NCBI RefSeq assembly: GCF_008122505.1
Contig: NZ_VSSB01000001.1
Coordinates: 1,286,891-1,350,890, forward strand
Origin: Agromyces mariniharenae
GTDB lineage: Bacteria > Actinomycetota > Actinomycetes > Actinomycetales > Microbacteriaceae
Reading direction: 5' to 3'
Length of the DNA stretch: 64,000 nt
Positions 13,030 to 41,857 of this stretch are shown in pieces. The stretch's first letter is position 1. Each line of letters begins with the position of its first letter. A program made the position numbers and the translations under genes. The notes beneath the pieces were generated by a model, which was given only the letters and a program-made list of their open reading frames with translations, did not search any database and was not told where the DNA came from.

Positions 13030-13038
13030 TCCTCCACC

Positions 13039-13161
13039 GGTCGTCGAGTAGCGCCCGGCGCAGCCGGACCCACCCCCGGTCGTCGAGTAGCGCCCGGCGC
13101 AGCCGGACCCACCCCCGGTCGTCGAGTAGCGCCCGGCGGAGCCGGACGCGTATCGAGACGC
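13039..13161 (+). repeat. 39-bp tandem repeat of the REP-like palindrome (two partial units plus one full)
   Basis: Units begin at 13039, 13078 and 13117, exactly 39 bp apart. The first two hold only the 5' half plus inner hairpin (CCGGC-GCA-GCCGG) and the spacer ACCCACCCCC. The third (13117-13161) is a full 45-bp copy with inner hairpin CCGGC-GGA-GCCGG and the 3' half GCGTATCGAGACGC. Confidence 0.9.
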
Positions 13162-13168
13162 GGCGAGG

Positions 13169-13212
13169 GATCTCGATACGGGTCGCGCTGTGCGCTGCCC
13201 TACTCGATCACC
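13169..13212 (-). repeat. REP-like palindrome, variant B, reverse orientation
   Basis: Read on the minus strand: GGTGATCGAGTAGGGC, inner hairpin GCGC-ACA-GCGC, then CCCGTATCGAGATC. The outer stem uses GGG/CCC where variant A uses CGC/GCG. It forms a head-to-head pair with the full copy at 13117-13161. A degenerate half copy (CCTCGATCACCGG) follows near 13236-13248. Confidence 0.85.
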
Positions 13213-13270
13213 GGCGGGTTCCAGCGCGCCGCCCTCCTCGATCACCGGACCCGCGGCCACCCGCACGTCG

Positions 13271-13282: not shown

Positions 13283-14209
13283 ATGGTCGACCTCACCCCG
13301 ACGGTCCGCATCGAGGGCGGCACGTTCCGCATGGGCTCCGCGGAGTTCTACCCCGACGAGACGCCCGTGCACGAGCGCACCGTCGACCCGTTCGAGCTCG
13401 ACCTGCACCCCGTGACGAACGAGCAGTTCGCCGCGTTCGTCGAGGCGACCGGCTACGTGACCGTGGCCGAGCGCCCGCTCGATCCGGCGGACTTCCCCGG
13501 ATACGACCCGGCCGGGCTCGTGCCCGGCGCGCTCGTGTTCACGCCGACGCCGGGCCCGGTCGACTTGCGCGACTGGCGGCAGTGGTGGCGCTGGGGCGAA
13601 GGCGCGAGCTGGCGGCATCCGCTCGGGCCCGACGGCGTCGACGCCCTCGAGGAGCGACCCGCCCACCCGGTGGTGCAGGTCAGCTTCGAGGATGCCTCGG
13701 CCTACGCCGCCTGGGCCGGCCGGCGCCTGCCCACCGAGGCCGAGTTCGAGTACGCGGCCCGCGGAGGCCTCGACGGAGCCCGGTTCGCGTGGGGGGACGA
13801 GGAGTTCCCCGACGGGAAGCTCATGGTGAACCGCTGGCAAGGCTCCTTCCCCTACCGCAACACGGGCGCCGCAGGCTGGGCCGGCACGTCGCCCGTCATG
13901 ACGTTCCCGGCGAACGGCTACGGCCTCTTCGACGTGACCGGCAACGTGTGGGAGTGGACGACCGACTACTACACGACGCGGCACGAGGTGCCCGGCCAGG
14001 AGCCGGTCGACGCCGGCGCGCGCGAGAACCTGCTCGCCGCGACCTCCGCCGAGCCGGGGTCGCGCATCCCCCGCCGGGTGCTCAAGGGCGGCTCGCACCT
14101 GTGCTCGCCCGAGTACTGCCTGCGCTACCGTCCCGCGGCCCGATCGCCGCAGGCCGACGACACCGCGACGACGCACATCGGCTTCCGCTGCGCGCGCAGC
14201 GTCGCCTGA
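13283..14209 (+). CDS. Formylglycine-generating enzyme (SUMF1 family)
   Basis: 308-aa enzyme that oxidises the Cys of a C-x-P-x-R motif in sulfatases to formylglycine. Near the N-terminus is GGTFRMGSAEFYPDETPVHE, in the middle RRLPTEAEFEYAARGG and DVTGNVWEWTTDYY. The catalytic Cys pair lies near the C-terminus, Cys274 and Cys279 in SHLCSPEYCLRYRP, as in true FGEs; EgtB-type relatives lack the pair. Its substrate is probably the arylsulfatase at 16894-19239, whose motif is intact. It is convergent with the SulP gene, with an inverted pair of REP-like palindromes between. The C-terminus GFRCARS is typical. Confidence 0.92.
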   Translation: MVDLTPTVRIEGGTFRMGSAEFYPDETPVHERTVDPFELDLHPVTNEQFAAFVEATGYVTVAERPLDPADFPGYDPAGLVPGALVFTPTPGPVDLRDWRQWWRWGEGASWRHPLGPDGVDALEERPAHPVVQVSFEDASAYAAWAGRRLPTEAEFEYAARGGLDGARFAWGDEEFPDGKLMVNRWQGSFPYRNTGAAGWAGTSPVMTFPANGYGLFDVTGNVWEWTTDYYTTRHEVPGQEPVDAGARENLLAATSAEPGSRIPRRVLKGGSHLCSPEYCLRYRPAARSPQADDTATTHIGFRCARSVA

Positions 14210-14216
14210 CGCGTCC

Positions 14217-14260
14217 GGTGATCGAGTAGGGCCGCGCGCAGCGCGACCCGTATCGAGATC
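14217..14260 (+). repeat. REP-like palindrome, variant B, forward
   Basis: GGTGATCGAGTAGGGC, inner hairpin CGCGC-GCA-GCGCG, then CCCGTATCGAGATC. It starts 7 bp after the stop of the formylglycine-generating enzyme gene and forms a head-to-head pair with the next copy, as in BIME-type repeats. Confidence 0.88.
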
Positions 14261-14267
14261 TCTCGCC

Positions 14268-14312
14268 GCGTCTCGATACGCGTCCGGCTCCGCCGGGCGC
14301 TACTCGACGACC
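14268..14312 (-). repeat. REP-like palindrome, variant A, reverse, overlapping the SulP stop
   Basis: Minus-strand reading: GGTCGTCGAGTAGCGC, inner hairpin CCGGC-GGA-GCCGG, then GCGTATCGAGACGC. Its GTCGTCGAGTAG end is read in frame as Val-Val-Glu-stop, so the repeat provides the last residues and TAG stop of the SulP gene. Confidence 0.9.
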
Positions 14313-15952
14313 GGTGTACCCGCGACCGCGTCGGCGAGGGTCGGGTACACCCGCCCGGCCGTCTCCAGCCCGTGGAACCAGCTCCCCCGGCGTGCCACCG
14401 CCGCGCCCGACTCGGGGACCGCCGCGAGCCGCAGCTCGACCCCGTGCCCGGCGAGCTCGCGATCGAGGTCTGCGAGCGTGTCGAGCACCGTGATCGACGT
14501 GACGCCCATGTGCGTGAGCTCGAGCGCGACCGCGTGCCCGCCGCCGTCGCCGCGCGACCGCACCGCGTCGAGCACCGCGTTCTCGTAGGCGAGTGCATTC
14601 GCGGTGTAGAGCGGACCGAGCAGCCGGATCGGCAGCACGCCGTCGACGGGTTCGTCCACCTCGATGCGGAGTCGGTTCAGCTCGCGCAGCACGACGCCGA
14701 GCGTCGCGACGATGCCGACGGCGACGGCGAGCAGCAGCCCGGCCGTGAGGCCCACCGCTGCCGTGACGACCGCGATCCAGAAGTCGTTGCGGCTGATGCG
14801 CCAGAATCGCACGAGTGACCCGACGTCGATGAGCGCGATCACGGCGACGAACACGAGGGCCGCGAGCGTCGCCTGCGGCAGCAGGCTCAGCACCGGCGCG
14901 AGGAACAGCGCGACGAGCACCGCCAGCACGACCGTGACGATCGAGGCGAGCTGCGTGCGCGCGCCGGCGCCCTGGTTCACGGCGCTCTGCGAGAAGCCGC
15001 CCGCCGCGGGCAGCACCTGGAAGAACGACCCGAGCGTGTTCGCGGCACCGGTCGCGAGCAGCTCCTGGTTGCTGTCGACCTGCGGTTCGCCGGGCTTGCG
15101 GATGCCGCGCGCCACCGCCGCGGACTCGAGGAACGCCATGATCGCGATCGCGATCGCCCCGGGCAGCAGCGCGCCGAGGTTCGCGAACGACGGCAGCTCG
15201 GGAGCGGGGAACCCCTGCGGCACGGGGTCGATGAGCGCAACGTCGGCGTCGCCGAGCCCCGCGAACGCCACGAGCAGGATGCCGCCCGCGACGACCACGA
15301 GCGGGCCCGGCACCCTCGGTAGGAATCGCTTCAGCAGGAGCAGCACCGCGATCGACCCGGCCGACAGCGCGATCGTAGCGGGGTTCGCGCCGGGGATCGC
15401 CTCGAACACGGCGACGACCGAGCGGATGAACCCATGCGTGCTGAGGTCGTCGGTCTCGCCGAGCAGCTTCGGCAGCTGCCCGACGGCGACGGTGGCGCCG
15501 ACCCCCACCTGGATGCCGACGAGCGTAGCCTTCGAGATGTTCTCGACGAGCGACCCGAGCCGCGCGACGCGCGCCACGAGCAGGATCAGGCCCACGAGCA
15601 GGGTGAGCGCCATGAGGTCGGGCACCGGGTCGTCGGACCCGGCGGCGACCCCGGCCGACACGAGCGTCGTGCCGCTGAGGGTGGCGATCGTCGACGTGGT
15701 CGAGACGCTCATCGCGCGCGAGCCGCCGAGCATCGCGTACACGAGCATCGGCACCATGCACGTGTAGAGGCCGAGCTGCACGGGCAGGTTCGCGATGGTC
15801 GCGTACGCCATCGCCTGCGGGATGACCACCGCGCCCGCCGAGAGCCCTGCGAGCACGTCGGGGCCGAGCCAGCCCAGGCGGTAGCCCGCGAGCGTCGGGA
15901 ACAGGCGGAAGCCGCGCGGCGCAGCGACCGCCGGGACCTCGGCGCGCGGCAT
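14300..15952 (-). CDS. SulP family sulfate/anion transporter
   Basis: 550-aa inner-membrane transporter with 10-14 predicted helices. The family signature (GAVVIPQAMAYATIANLPVQLGLYT) is near residue 45, and a C-terminal cytosolic STAS domain starts around residue 430 (PLYTANALAYENAVLDAV, then THMGVTSITVLDTLADL). It is the last gene of a minus-strand unit sulfatase-HAD-SulP, 3 bp after the HAD gene, so a role in moving sulfate released by the sulfatase is a fair inference; bicarbonate or another anion cannot be excluded. The final VVE-stop is encoded within a REP-like repeat. Confidence 0.88.
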   Translation of the reverse strand: MPRAEVPAVAAPRGFRLFPTLAGYRLGWLGPDVLAGLSAGAVVIPQAMAYATIANLPVQLGLYTCMVPMLVYAMLGGSRAMSVSTTSTIATLSGTTLVSAGVAAGSDDPVPDLMALTLLVGLILLVARVARLGSLVENISKATLVGIQVGVGATVAVGQLPKLLGETDDLSTHGFIRSVVAVFEAIPGANPATIALSAGSIAVLLLLKRFLPRVPGPLVVVAGGILLVAFAGLGDADVALIDPVPQGFPAPELPSFANLGALLPGAIAIAIMAFLESAAVARGIRKPGEPQVDSNQELLATGAANTLGSFFQVLPAAGGFSQSAVNQGAGARTQLASIVTVVLAVLVALFLAPVLSLLPQATLAALVFVAVIALIDVGSLVRFWRISRNDFWIAVVTAAVGLTAGLLLAVAVGIVATLGVVLRELNRLRIEVDEPVDGVLPIRLLGPLYTANALAYENAVLDAVRSRGDGGGHAVALELTHMGVTSITVLDTLADLDRELAGHGVELRLAAVPESGAAVARRGSWFHGLETAGRVYPTLADAVAGTPVVE

Positions 15953-23779: not shown

Positions 23780-24268
23780 ATGACCGCGTTCATCCACGTG
23801 CTGCTCATCGCCGCGATCCTCGGCACCGGCATCGCCGCCGGGGTCTTCTACGCCTTCTCGGGCTTCGTGACCCAGGGGCTCGATCGGCTGCCGCCATCGG
23901 ATGCCGCGCGGGCCATGCAGGAGATCAATGTGGCGGCCGTGCGCGCACCGCTCATGCTCGAGCTCTTCGGCACGGCGCTCGTCGCGGCCGTCGTGTTCGT
24001 GCTCGCCCTGCTCGGGTCGCTCGGCGACGGCATGTGGTGGGCGATCGCGGCATCCGCCGCCTACCTCGTCGGCGCGATCGGCGTGACGGGCGCCGCGAAC
24101 GTGCCCCGCAACAACCGGCTCGTCGCCACCTCGGCGACGGATGCCGCGGCGCTGGCCGCCGCGTGGACGGCGTTCCGCCCGGGCTGGCAGTCGTGGAACC
24201 ACGTGCGCACCATCACCTCGGCGCTCGCCTGCCTCGGCTTCGCGCTCGCCCTGCTCGCGGCGGGCTGA
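23780..24268 (+). CDS. DUF1772 (anthrone oxygenase-like) membrane protein
   Basis: 162-aa protein with four predicted transmembrane helices: residues about 4-30, 55-80, 88-108 and the C-terminal end. The motif NVPRNNRL between helices 3 and 4 and W-x-x-W/NHVRT near the end are typical of DUF1772. The family is loosely related to anthrone oxygenases; no function is demonstrated. ATG at 23780, with a GTG one codon upstream also possible. It ends 12 bp before the first repeat of the GIY-YIG element. Confidence 0.82.
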   Translation: MTAFIHVLLIAAILGTGIAAGVFYAFSGFVTQGLDRLPPSDAARAMQEINVAAVRAPLMLELFGTALVAAVVFVLALLGSLGDGMWWAIAASAAYLVGAIGVTGAANVPRNNRLVATSATDAAALAAAWTAFRPGWQSWNHVRTITSALACLGFALALLAAG

Positions 24269-24279
24269 CCCGCCCTCCC

Positions 24280-24324
24280 GGTCGTCGAGTAGCGCCGCGC
24301 GCAGCGCGACGCGTATCGAGACGC
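24280..24324 (+). repeat. REP-like palindrome, variant A, forward
   Basis: GGTCGTCGAGTAGCGC, inner hairpin CGCGC-GCA-GCGCG, then ACGCGTATCGAGACGC; 45 bp, full length. Confidence 0.92.
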
Positions 24325-24338
24325 AGCACGAGCCATCC

Positions 24339-24370
24339 GGTCGTCGAGCAGCGCCGCGCGCAGCACGACC
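24339..24370 (+). repeat. REP-like palindrome, truncated
   Basis: GGTCGTCGAGCAGCGC with inner hairpin CGCGC-GCA-GCACG (one pair broken); runs straight into the next copy. Confidence 0.8.
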
Positions 24371-24415
24371 GGTCGTCGAGTAGCGCCCGGCGGAGCCGGA
24401 CGCGTATCGAGACGC
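24371..24415 (+). repeat. REP-like palindrome, variant A, forward
   Basis: Full 45-bp copy, inner hairpin CCGGC-GGA-GCCGG. It ends 14 bp from the GIY-YIG stop codon. Confidence 0.92.
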
Positions 24416-24429
24416 AGCACGTCACCTGC

Positions 24430-24720
24430 CTATTCGCCACGCGCCCACCGTTTCCGCGACAACCCGGGCAGCGCATCGAACCGACCCTCGATCAACGCGA
24501 TTCGCTTCGCGCGACTCCATCCCTGCACCTGCTTCTCGAGGGCGAATGCTTCGTCGATGCGGTCGAACTCCCTGCTGAAGATCAGCCGGACCGGGAGCCG
24601 GCGTCGGGTGTACGCGGATCCCTCCCCGCGTTGGTGCTGCGCGACCCGCCGATCGAGGTCGATCGTGCTGCCGACATACATCGTGCCGTCGATGCATTCG
24701 AGGATGTAGAAGTGCGGCAT
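24430..24720 (-). CDS. GIY-YIG domain nuclease (UPF0213-like), 96 aa
   Basis: Single-domain GIY-YIG protein. FYI at residues 4-6 and YVG at 15-17 form the signature; Arg24 or Arg25 (DLDRRVAQH) and Glu62 (FALEKQVQGW) are the expected catalytic Arg and metal-binding Glu, so all key residues appear present. The domain is known in small structure-specific DNA nucleases (for example SLX1 and the E. coli YhbQ group). The gene is enclosed by REP-like palindromes, inverted between the two sides, and the nearest copy is 14 bp past the stop. That suggests, but does not prove, that the nuclease acts on the palindromes. No strong Shine-Dalgarno or TANNNT box precedes the ATG. Confidence 0.9.
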   Translation of the reverse strand: MPHFYILECIDGTMYVGSTIDLDRRVAQHQRGEGSAYTRRRLPVRLIFSREFDRIDEAFALEKQVQGWSRAKRIALIEGRFDALPGLSRKRWARGE

Positions 24721-24826
24721 GTCGCCCAGACTGCGGGGTCGGGCGAAGGCGTTGCGGCATCCGGTTCGCTGGCGATGCGGATCTCATCGAGGCGACCATG
24801 TTGAGGAATGGACGCCGGGCGGCGTT

Positions 24827-24871
24827 GCGTCTCGATACGCGTCCGGCTCCGCCGGGCGCTACTCGACGACC
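24827..24871 (-). repeat. REP-like palindrome, variant A, reverse
   Basis: Full 45-bp copy, inner hairpin CCGGC-GGA-GCCGG when read on the minus strand, 107 bp upstream of the GIY-YIG start. Confidence 0.92.
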
Positions 24872-24887
24872 GGGCGACGGAAACGTC

Positions 24888-24932
24888 GCGTCTCGATACG
24901 CGTCCGGCTCCGCCGGGCGCTACTCGACGACC
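24888..24932 (-). repeat. REP-like palindrome, variant A, reverse
   Basis: Full 45-bp copy, same sequence as the copy at 24827-24871; the two are 61 bp apart. Confidence 0.92.
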
Positions 24933-24937
24933 GGACA

Positions 24938-24960
24938 GCGGCCGCTATTCGACGGCCGGG
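24938..24960 (-). repeat. REP-like palindrome, degenerate fragment
   Basis: GGCCGTCGAATAGCGGCCGC on the minus strand: only the 5' box remains, with substitutions. Confidence 0.55.
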
Positions 24961-24972
24961 ATGGAACCCCTC

Positions 24973-25017
24973 GCGTCTCGATACGCGTCGCGCTTCGCGC
25001 GGCGCTACTCGACGACC
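24973..25017 (-). repeat. REP-like palindrome, variant A, reverse
   Basis: Full 45-bp copy, inner hairpin CGCGC-GAA-GCGCG: different stem bases from its neighbours but fully paired. Confidence 0.92.
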
Positions 25018-25023
25018 GGGACG

Positions 25024-25046
25024 GCCCGGGCGCTACTCGACGACCG
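25024..25046 (-). repeat. REP-like palindrome, truncated to the 5' box
   Basis: GGTCGTCGAGTAGCGCCCGG on the minus strand, ending 10 bp before the ArsR stop codon. Confidence 0.8.
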
Positions 25047-25055
25047 GAGGACGGG

Positions 25056-25484
25056 TCAGCGACGCTTCTTCTGGCCGACGACCGCGTGGGCGGCCTCGGC
25101 GAAGCGCTGGCCGATCGCGGAGGCCCAGGCGAGCTGGTCGTCGTTGAGCGCCACGCCCTGCGCCTCGGCCTCGGCGAGGGTCGCGGCATCCGCTGCGGCA
25201 TCGGATGACACGAACGGAATGAGCCAGTCTTCGAGGGTCTCGAGCGGGCGGCGGTCGAGGTGGTAGTAGCGGTGCTGGCCCTCTTCGCGCACGCCGACGA
25301 GGCCCGCCTCGCGCAGCACCTTGAGGTGCTTCGAGACGGTCGGCTGGCTGAGGCCGAGCGTCGAGACGATCTCGGAGACGCTGATCTCGCCGCCGGATTC
25401 GGGTGCGGACGTCTCGCGGTCGAGGAGCACCCCGAGGATGTCGCGCCGGGTCGTGTCCGCCACCACGTCGAAGATGTCCGCCAT
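25056..25484 (-). CDS. ArsR-type winged-helix regulator
   Basis: 142-aa DNA-binding protein. The winged helix is VSEIVSTLGLSQPTVSKHLKVLREAGLV, with wing EEGQHRYYHLD (residues about 34-77). No metal-binding Cys pair is visible, so it is probably not a metal sensor. A C-terminal helical extension ends in GQKKRR. It is divergent from ktrB, with 73 bp between the starts, so control of K+ uptake is possible but unproven. The ATG at 25484 is 6 nt after a TACCCT box. Confidence 0.85.
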   Translation of the reverse strand: MADIFDVVADTTRRDILGVLLDRETSAPESGGEISVSEIVSTLGLSQPTVSKHLKVLREAGLVGVREEGQHRYYHLDRRPLETLEDWLIPFVSSDAAADAATLAEAEAQGVALNDDQLAWASAIGQRFAEAAHAVVGQKKRR

Positions 25485-40533: not shown

Positions 40534-41857
40534 GCCGCTCGAGCTCGGCGATGCGCGCGGCGCGATCGCGCGGCATTCCCGGAACCCCCGGCCGCTGCTG
40601 CTCGGGTCGTGGACCGTCGAGCGGCCGGAAGTCCACGCCCTGCTCCTCGAGCCACGCCAGGTAGCCGGGCAGCCGGAACGCGAAGTCGTCCCAGTCGAGC
40701 GGTCCGCCGTTCCACGCGACCTCCGCGAACGCGCCGAGACGCGGGAACACCGCGTAGTCGAGTCGCTCGCGGGTGTCGAGGTGCTCGGTCCACACGTTCG
40801 CCTGCACGCCGATGACGTGCTGCCGCAGCGCCGCCGACGACGCGGACGACAGCGGCTCGAACGACGCGACGTCCTCGAGCGAGAGCACCGTGCCGACGGG
40901 GATCGGCTCGCGCGGGTCGTCCGACTGCCGGTAGTCGAGGTAGGTCCACAGGTCGGGGCAGAGCACGACGTCATGGCCGAGCCGCGCCCCGAGCTCGGCG
41001 CCGACCGGTCCGCGCCACGACGCGACGACCGCGTCGGGCGCCGGCGCCCCGCCGCCCTCGAGCATCTCGTCCCACCCGATCACGCGGCGCCCTCGACGTG
41101 CGAGGTGCGCCGCGACGCGGCCGAGGAACCACGCCTGCAGCGCCGGCTCGTCGGCGAGCCCGCGCTCGGCCATGAGCTCCTGCGTGCGCGGGTCCTCGCG
41201 CCACCGCGTCTTCTGCGCCTCGTCGCCGCCGATGCCGATCACGTCGGACTCGAACACGTCGCACACCTCGTCGAGCACGTCGCACACGAAGGCGACCGTC
41301 GCGTCCTCGGCATTCAGCACCTCGTCGGAGATGCCGAACCGCGTCCACGGCTCGGTCACCCGTTCGCGCACGGCCCCCGCCCCGCCGACGCCGTGCTCGG
41401 GATACGCCGCGAGGATCGCCCGCGCATGCCCGGGCACGTCGACCTCGGGCACGATCCGGATGCCGCGCTCGGACGCGTACCGCACGAGCCCGCGAAGCTC
41501 GTCCTTCGTGTACCACCCGGCGTGCGGCACCCCGTCGCCGCGTGCGTCGGGCCCGTGCCCGAGCTGGGACTCCGACCGCCGACCGCCCACCTCGGTGAGC
41601 AGCGGATGCCGCCGCACCTCGAACCGCCAGCCCTGGTCGTCGGTGAGGTGCAGCTGCAGCATGTTGAGCCCGTGGGCCGCGACGAGGTCGACGAACCGGT
41701 GCAGCTCGGGCAGCGGCCGGAACCGGCGCGCGACGTCGAGCATGACGCCGCGCCACGCGAAGCGGGGCTCGCCGGTGAGGCGGAGCGGGGCCAGCGTCTC
41801 GATACGCGTCGGCCTGCGGCCGGCGCTACTCGACGACCGGGATGGCGGCGAGGTCAC
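40499..41857 (-). CDS. Beta-N-acetylhexosaminidase (GH20), catalytic domain only, repeat-encoded N-terminus
   Basis: Removes terminal GlcNAc from chitin or peptidoglycan fragments. The GH20 core begins PRFAWRGVMLDVARRF at residue 31, and the catalytic Asp-Glu pair is GIGGDEAQKTRW; VIGWDEML, VVASWRG and VIGVQANVWTE follow. The usual N-terminal GH20b domain (about 120-150 aa) is missing. The GTG at 41857 overlaps the proC stop (GTGA); a start there makes a REP-like repeat (41794-41838) coding for residues about 7-22 (RSSSSAGRRPTRIET). The alternative ATG at 41743 would cut into the first barrel strand. No signal peptide, so probably cytosolic. Downstream neighbour rlmC is convergent. Confidence 0.8.
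   Translation of the reverse strand: MTSPPSRSSSSAGRRPTRIETLAPLRLTGEPRFAWRGVMLDVARRFRPLPELHRFVDLVAAHGLNMLQLHLTDDQGWRFEVRRHPLLTEVGGRRSESQLGHGPDARGDGVPHAGWYTKDELRGLVRYASERGIRIVPEVDVPGHARAILAAYPEHGVGGAGAVRERVTEPWTRFGISDEVLNAEDATVAFVCDVLDEVCDVFESDVIGIGGDEAQKTRWREDPRTQELMAERGLADEPALQAWFLGRVAAHLARRGRRVIGWDEMLEGGGAPAPDAVVASWRGPVGAELGARLGHDVVLCPDLWTYLDYRQSDDPREPIPVGTVLSLEDVASFEPLSSASSAALRQHVIGVQANVWTEHLDTRERLDYAVFPRLGAFAEVAWNGGPLDWDDFAFRLPGYLAWLEEQGVDFRPLDGPRPEQQRPGVPGMPRDRAARIAELERLTADLDAPAAP
41794..41838 (-). repeat. REP-like palindrome, variant A, inside the hexosaminidase 5' end
   Basis: Full 45-bp copy on the minus strand; inner hairpin CGGCC-GCA-GGCCG, a stem found in no other copy here but fully paired. 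It lies 15 bp downstream of the proC stop. Confidence 0.9.

Follow-up and report, generated by a model that had tools for sequence, protein, structure and literature searches.

One of the closest described counterparts of the locus analysed here is Ssn of Neisseria, which Chenal and others are said to have described in Nature Communications in 2025. Ssn is reportedly a GIY-YIG site-specific single-stranded nuclease with cognate NTS repeats distributed genome-wide, and it is said to cut these repeats in single-stranded form, modulating uptake or recombination. Like Ssn, the system in the window (the whole stretch of 64,000 nucleotides of Agromyces mariniharenae DNA that was analysed) was composed of a single-domain GIY-YIG protein and a cognate repeat, which was located around the gene and in many genomic copies (68 full copies, five of them at the gene). 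However, the window repeat was longer and unrelated in sequence, and the window protein showed 32% identity to the GIY-YIG protein of N. gonorrhoeae, which we take to be Ssn.

The RAYT/REP/REPIN systems, which are IS200/IS605-like and of the HUH type, share another set of features with the locus. In both, inverted REPs enclose a small gene, copies devoid of the gene are numerous and occur singly or as inverted pairs, and repeats are also found where there is no enzyme gene. The window protein differed from RAYTs in that it contained no HUH/Y1 domain, and a GIY-YIG nuclease occupied that place. We know of no strand-transfer activity in GIY-YIG enzymes. This group of enzymes includes known homing nucleases, whose genes are located within an intron, an intein, or their own target site. 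The window gene was located in an intergenic gap, and REPs were found at some gene-less sites while most were devoid of them. The UPF0213/YazA/YhbQ-type GIY-YIG proteins matched the window protein in fold and size and gave the best matches among solved structures. To our knowledge, these proteins have neither a tie to repeats nor an assigned function.

A class of CGTC-tagged REPs apparently has no dedicated transposase, according to the survey by Di Nocera and others (2013; PMC3733652). The survey describes these REPs as palindromic and mostly arranged in head-to-head pairs, includes the Neisseria dRS3 repeats among them, and characterizes the families by a terminal CGTC, a stem starting with AT, and a CCA tail. 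When compared with this description (PMC3733652), the window repeat lacked the terminal CGTC, the AT-starting stem, and the CCA tail. A literature search of titles and the beginnings of abstracts found no link between GIY-YIG proteins and REPs among the matches listed, and a listed paper naming both RAYT and GIY-YIG referred, in the passages concerned, to separate genes. The system had been called a candidate undescribed mobile system when the DNA was read from its sequence alone. The word undescribed is doubtful and too strong because of Ssn, as outlined above, and of the same anatomy at a Neisseria locus; the Ssn study may already include actinobacterial homologues.

The locus, its repeat, and its nuclease

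The GIY-YIG gene was located in a gap of 787 bp between convergent neighbours, which was filled by three forward palindromes, the gene, and five inverted palindromes (Table 1). Five palindromes were full and three were partial, and they formed two mutually inverted clusters around the gene. The sequence-only reading had described this arrangement of three forward palindromes, a minus-strand gene of 96 aa, and five reverse full or partial palindromes, filling the whole gap between two unrelated genes. This description was confirmed, the neighbours being anthrone-oxygenase-like and ArsR-type. The 14 bp that it had given between stop codon and nearest repeat followed from the last repeat base at 24415 and the stop codon starting at 24430. 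The gene-less copies that it had noticed elsewhere in the window corresponded to a solitary copy at 41796 and to clusters that flank positions 13283-14209. The gene at 13283-14209, which encodes a sulfatase-modifying factor (FGE), likewise lay between inverted clusters of the window repeat, and thus some ordinary genes are REP-bracketed as well. An Rfam search of the locus gave nothing above the gathering score.

Table 1. Features of the GIY-YIG locus, its neighbours, and the gene-less repeats of the window
Feature	Positions	Strand	Basis
Full REP-like palindrome; TCGAGTAG end distal to gene, GTATCGAGAC end proximal	24278..24324	+	Pattern match
Partial palindrome, distal arm and stem only	24337..24369	+	
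Full palindrome nearest the nuclease stop codon, 14 bp off	24369..24415	+	
GIY-YIG nuclease gene, 96 aa, single domain	24430..24720	-	PF01541, AlphaFold2 model
Full palindrome, inverted	24827..24873	-	
Full palindrome, inverted	24888..24934	-	
Degenerate partial palindrome	about 24942..24962	-	Limits by eye
Full palindrome, inverted	24973..25019	-	
Half palindrome	25026..25047	-	
Left neighbour, anthrone-oxygenase-like; outside the element, marks insertion site	23780..24268	+	Pfam
Right neighbour, ArsR-type regulator; outside the element, marks insertion site	25056..25484	-	Pfam
Gene-less repeat cluster: two partial and one full forward, one inverted variant copy	13037..13214	.	Limits by eye
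Gene-less inverted repeat pair	14215..14314	.	Limits by eye
Gene-less single repeat copy	41796..41833	-	

In the 4.08-Mb genome, the pattern TCGAGTAGCG-N-GTATCGAGAC defined the 68 full copies, whereas the reversed control pattern gave 0. The five copies at the GIY-YIG locus were contained within 728 bp, which was the densest place among the copies of the genome. Among the 68 copies were 19 head-to-head pairs with a spacer of 9-25 bp, as in REPINs. All 19 were oriented as TCGAGTAG...GTATCGAGAC followed by the inverted copy, which is the orientation that brackets the gene. Three further pairs less than 100 bp apart were on the same strand, and all were located at the GIY-YIG gene.

A C-GNA-G centre was present on one strand in 67 of the 68 copies and on the opposite strand in 0 of 68, while letter shuffling gave an expectation of 10.9 and a maximum of 21. 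The stems beside this centre comprised 15 different complementary sequences, with at least four base pairs in 57 of the 67. Since C-GNA-G is an unusually stable DNA mini-hairpin and occurred on one strand, this strand is likely the hairpin strand. The fold energies of the palindromes showed no clear gain over shuffled sequences (z from -1.4 to 0.1), so that the hairpin argument is made by stem complementarity together with loop asymmetry. REPINs carry an unpaired GTAG tag at one end; in the window repeat, the GTAG inside GAGTAGCG was predicted to fold into an internal loop and formed no clear terminal tag.

The protein matched PF01541 with 62.9 bits over residues 2-72 of its 96 residues, as a single domain. 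The AlphaFold2 model (mean pLDDT 88.7) had a complete small GIY-YIG fold, and the nearest solved structures were the UPF0213 proteins (1zg2 and 1ywl) and Slx1. Residues Y5, Y15, G17, R24, R25, H29, and E62 were invariant or nearly so among 20 homologues. The nearest named homologues were Agromyces proteins with 89-90% identity, and the genome contained only two other PF01541 matches, a UvrC-size frame and a weak match in a 187-aa frame. The C-terminal residues ..VE were found in 18 of 120 homologues (P0001-P0120). At L122, a GGTCGAGTAG repeat ran 9 bp into the end of the gene, and by this overlap the repeat may contribute the terminal codons of the gene together with its stop; for the 18 ..VE proteins, the comparison concerned protein ends only.

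Association of the gene with repeats and their classes

Homologues were found in 48 of 199 genomes of the family Microbacteriaceae, at 66 places, two of which (G122 and G147) were weak matches in long frames. All 66 loci were taken with up to 5 kb per side, and other open reading frames of the same stretches were used as control. Repeats in any orientation, with a score of at least 20, were located within 300 bp at 52 of 66 GIY-YIG loci compared with 13 of 263 control frames. Long inverted repeats between the 400-bp flanks were present at 37 of 66 loci compared with 3 of 265 control frames. Among the 14 loci below the score, five (L077, L101, L103, L111, and L128) still had a recognisable repeat, and no clear repeats were seen at nine of the 66, mostly distant homologues (L068, L069, L090, and L094-L099). 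In Agromyces, where 20 loci were examined from 28 places found, three of the 20 belonging to the 66-locus set too, repeats were present at 20 of 20 and on both sides in 18. A comparison of homologue flanks had been proposed by the sequence-only reading, and its outcome was that repeats are far commoner beside homologues than beside control frames. The link between gene and repeat is not chance; the control frames ruled out random placement as well as a general effect of intergenic position. Four genes (L086, L088, L091, and L092) were dropped as repeat-free negative controls, as other repeats, missed by the first patterns, were present beside them.

The repeats were assigned to classes by nine patterns, which were written after inspection of the flanks. 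A class label was obtained at 58 of 64 loci, with a single class at 55 of these 58 and two classes at L081, L091, and L112. A further class, GGTCGTTGAGCGAG...CGAGACGAAACG, was observed at Microbacterium-type homologues (L225, L236, L252, L257, L258, and L107). On the protein tree, the class changed 24 times compared with 31.8 times after shuffling, and 0 of 300 shuffles were as low. Paralogue pairs within one genome had a common class in 0 of 18 cases, a result equalled in 33 of 5000 shuffles. If near-gene repeats merely mirrored genome-wide abundance, paralogues would have a common class, which was not observed in any of the 18 pairs. The three genes of genome G163, the clearest case, were flanked by CGTCTCGA (L117), CGTATCGA (L081), and CGTGTCGA (L083), respectively; L081 carried two classes, with 5 and 4 matches, the fourth type of this genome being GAGTGC...TGTATCGA. 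Its dispersed repeats, of which 100 were listed from 192 counted using a pattern blind to the GAGTGC...TGTATCGA type, comprised 33 of the CGTCTCGA, 39 of the CGTATCGA, and 20 of the CGTGTCGA type, and 8 others. As paralogues are tied to different repeat classes, several systems can coexist in one genome. Taken as sequence evidence, the agreement between class and protein strongly supports recognition of the cognate palindrome by the GIY-YIG protein.

The palindromes might instead be terminators or regulators that gather in convergent gaps, with an incidental association to the gene. The convergent gap of the window and the REPs flanking the unrelated gene at 13283-14209 are in line with this explanation, but such flanks were rare at control frames of the same stretches and the class tracked the protein, not the host genome, which leaves it hardly credible.

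Gene and repeat were also compared by their distribution over genomes. Of the 199 genomes, 26 contained both the gene and the window repeat, 22 the gene only, 14 the repeat only, and 137 neither, which corresponds to an odds ratio of 11.6 with kinship ignored; many of the 22 gene-only genomes had another repeat class. Among 60 Agromyces genomes, the median number of repeat-pattern matches was 189 in the 23 with the gene (including G202 and G214 with two pieces each and G208 with a partial match) and 71 in the 37 without it (p 5e-5, kinship ignored), the pattern also matching coding DNA. Ten repeat-rich genomes without the gene had only UvrC-size GIY-YIG frames, and three of them also had a weak match in another long frame. 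Repeats therefore persist without the gene, and they often outlive it. In the Agromyces genomes G202 and G214, the GIY-YIG match was in two pieces and the repeats were still there, which, from the sequence, resembles decay of the gene with the repeats left in place.

The sequence-only reading had named, as a result that would speak against the link, a genus rich in repeats and lacking the gene in every strain. No such case was seen in g1 (Agromyces) and g42, where the repeat-rich, gene-less genomes G073 and G041 had gene-bearing genus-mates. The outcome was less clear in g23 and g54, where the gene of the gene-bearing mate (L092 and L082, respectively) was not labelled with the window repeat class, and likewise in g64 and g37, which were represented by one sampled genome each.

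Relatives outside the family and the CGTC REPs

Among 562 confirmed named loci, the best 80, at least six of which overlap the 66-locus set, extended to other Actinomycetota, Bacteroidota, Chloroflexota, Rickettsiales, cyanobacteria, and others, with 54-69% identity. Such close homologues in distant phyla point to horizontal spread of the gene. Inverted repeats with a score of at least 16 were found at 43 of these 80 loci, one of the 43 being a masked-N artefact, compared with 1 of 91 control frames. By eye, flanking repeats were recognised at 10 of 21 non-actinobacterial named loci (L211, titled Planococcus, was excluded). In a plasmid collection, where 10 loci were taken from 25 listed of 35 records, flanking REPs were present at four (L290, L291, L295, and L298). 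Of the loci at which both nearest repeats were recognised, just 19 of 27 in the family and 11 of 23 in the named set had them in the bracketing orientation, which counts against the cassette explanation proposed below.

With two flanked proteins as queries, 14 loci were drawn from 33 and 34 records. CGTC- or CCTC-tagged hairpins or near variants were located within about 500 bp on both sides at 11 of them, on one side at two, and on neither side at one, in a set that had no control frames and was biased because the query proteins were themselves flanked; L312 and L298 were one and the same gene, and the second side of L312 was read from L298. The CGTC REPs surrounded GIY-YIG genes in Alphaproteobacteria, Neisseria, Aeromonas, and Photobacterium (on one side). 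Within 500 bp of the N. gonorrhoeae GIY-YIG gene, there were four hairpins to one side and five to the opposite side. The identity of 32% between the window protein and the N. gonorrhoeae protein extended over 68 aa, with an E value of 1e-12 in a single comparison. Two 2.17-Mb N. gonorrhoeae records filed as plasmids (NZ_CP119142.1 and NZ_CP119140.1) were chromosome-like in size. In a plasmid of Azospirillum lipoferum 4B (L304, 1369-1987), a GIY-YIG gene and CGTC REPs were located between sufB and sufC of an Fe-S cluster gene set. A GIY-YIG gene of a Planktothrix agardhii plasmid (L313), without hairpins in its flanks, had a DISARM helicase gene on one side and the gene of a type IIL restriction enzyme (MmeI) on the other.

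Gene positions, gene-less sites, and a proposed mechanism

The positions of the gene were dispersed. When 61 loci were grouped by common neighbours, 47 context groups were obtained; any neighbour was common in 15 of 1830 pairs, and both sides in 6. Relatives were also compared at the window site, as the sequence-only reading had suggested for finding empty sites, using 50 Agromyces loci of 60 matched. The window neighbours were convergent in 22 of the 50. They were 787 bp apart in the genome of the window, and in the 21 others, where they were adjacent without the gene, the distance was 3-131 bp. REP-like sequence was seen by eye at five of the 21 gene-less sites (L133, L137, L138, L166, and L168), while the strict pattern found none. 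No REP was seen by eye at the other 16, L153 being in doubt as a possible remnant. The site L131, whose ArsR gene was the best match to that of the window, was among these 16. At L132, L176, and L179, the gene came after the ArsR gene and the second neighbour was not found. With REPs at some gene-less sites and none at most, the data fit insertion into REP sites or into naive gaps alike, and the divergence among the compared sites was too high for target duplications to be read.

The five sites with REP-like sequence between the same neighbours would also suit an explanation by homing or hitch-hiking, in which the GIY-YIG gene invades pre-existing REP arrays and the REPs are spread by something else; homing nucleases of the GIY-YIG type are known in general. 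This explanation is nevertheless distinctly improbable, as 16 of 21 gene-less sites, L131 included, showed no REP by eye and gene-bearing Agromyces genomes had more repeats. Moreover, no other candidate REP enzyme was found. A profile search with PF01797 detected no RAYT-type gene in the window genome, consistent with the earlier suggestion that the GIY-YIG nuclease stands in the place of a RAYT. In the 199 family genomes, Y1_Tnp (PF01797) was detected in one, G010, itself without the window repeat pattern.

We consider a mobile cassette of the form REP/GIY-YIG/REP to be the best explanation and a somewhat probable one, in which the nuclease would recognise and cut its cognate palindrome and host repair would spread both the REPs and the cassette. 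As judged from sequence comparison, the GIY-YIG protein probably recognises its own flanking palindrome, probably in single-stranded form, and cuts it, acting as a sequence-specific nuclease. The substrate would most likely be a single-stranded hairpin, at a replication fork or on incoming DNA. After a cut at the REPs, host repair would copy REPs, inverted pairs (REPIN-like, with the 9-25 bp spacer), and occasionally the whole cassette. The copies would land in other intergenic gaps or at existing REP sites, and the inverted REP pairs would be non-autonomous cassettes that contain no gene. Where the gene is lost, its repeats would be left behind and decay. Such chemistry would be unlike that of the RAYTs, as it would consist of cutting and host repair instead of transposase-bound strand transfer. 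The comparisons establish the association, its specificity by class, the dispersed positions of the gene, the gene-less sites, and the strand asymmetry of the hairpin loop. Binding, single-strand cleavage, and copying are the steps that we infer, and mobilisation of REPs by the nuclease would most simply account for the dispersed cassettes, the gene-less sites, and the inverted pairs.

The nuclease may alternatively recognise the repeats without moving them: cutting would be Ssn-like, the repeats would be amplified by slippage or gene conversion, and the gene would spread by ordinary horizontal transfer. The same anatomy at the Neisseria locus, the persistence of repeats in genomes that have no gene, and the occurrence of close homologues in phyla far apart, which fits horizontal transfer, all agree with this alternative. 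It is nonetheless unlikely, since the 47 context groups among 61 loci, the single class at 55 of 58 loci, and the differing classes of paralogues are what would be expected from a self-spreading cassette, and the narrow spacer of the inverted pairs looks like that of a copied unit.

Returning to the cassette explanation, relatives elsewhere were often paired likewise with other palindromes, and on this sequence evidence a class of bacterial repeats probably has its missing partner in the GIY-YIG nuclease. A broader proposal, whose chances we regard as evenly balanced, is that REP enzymes comprise, besides the RAYTs, a second and independent class, the single-domain GIY-YIG nucleases. Each clade would be bound to a palindrome class of its own, with the cassette as the autonomous form and inverted pairs as the miniature form, and the class would include the partner of the CGTC REPs, dRS3 among them.

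These results would provide a named candidate partner for each repeat class. The CGTC REPs are apparently without a dedicated transposase according to the cited survey (PMC3733652), and the repeats of the family within the Actinomycetota likewise have no RAYT beside them. The pairs of GIY-YIG protein and repeat could supply sequence-specific single-strand cutters. Furthermore, paralogue pairs within one genome represent natural differences in specificity, with which the recognition code, as well as the question of what spreads REPs, becomes directly testable in harmless soil bacteria.
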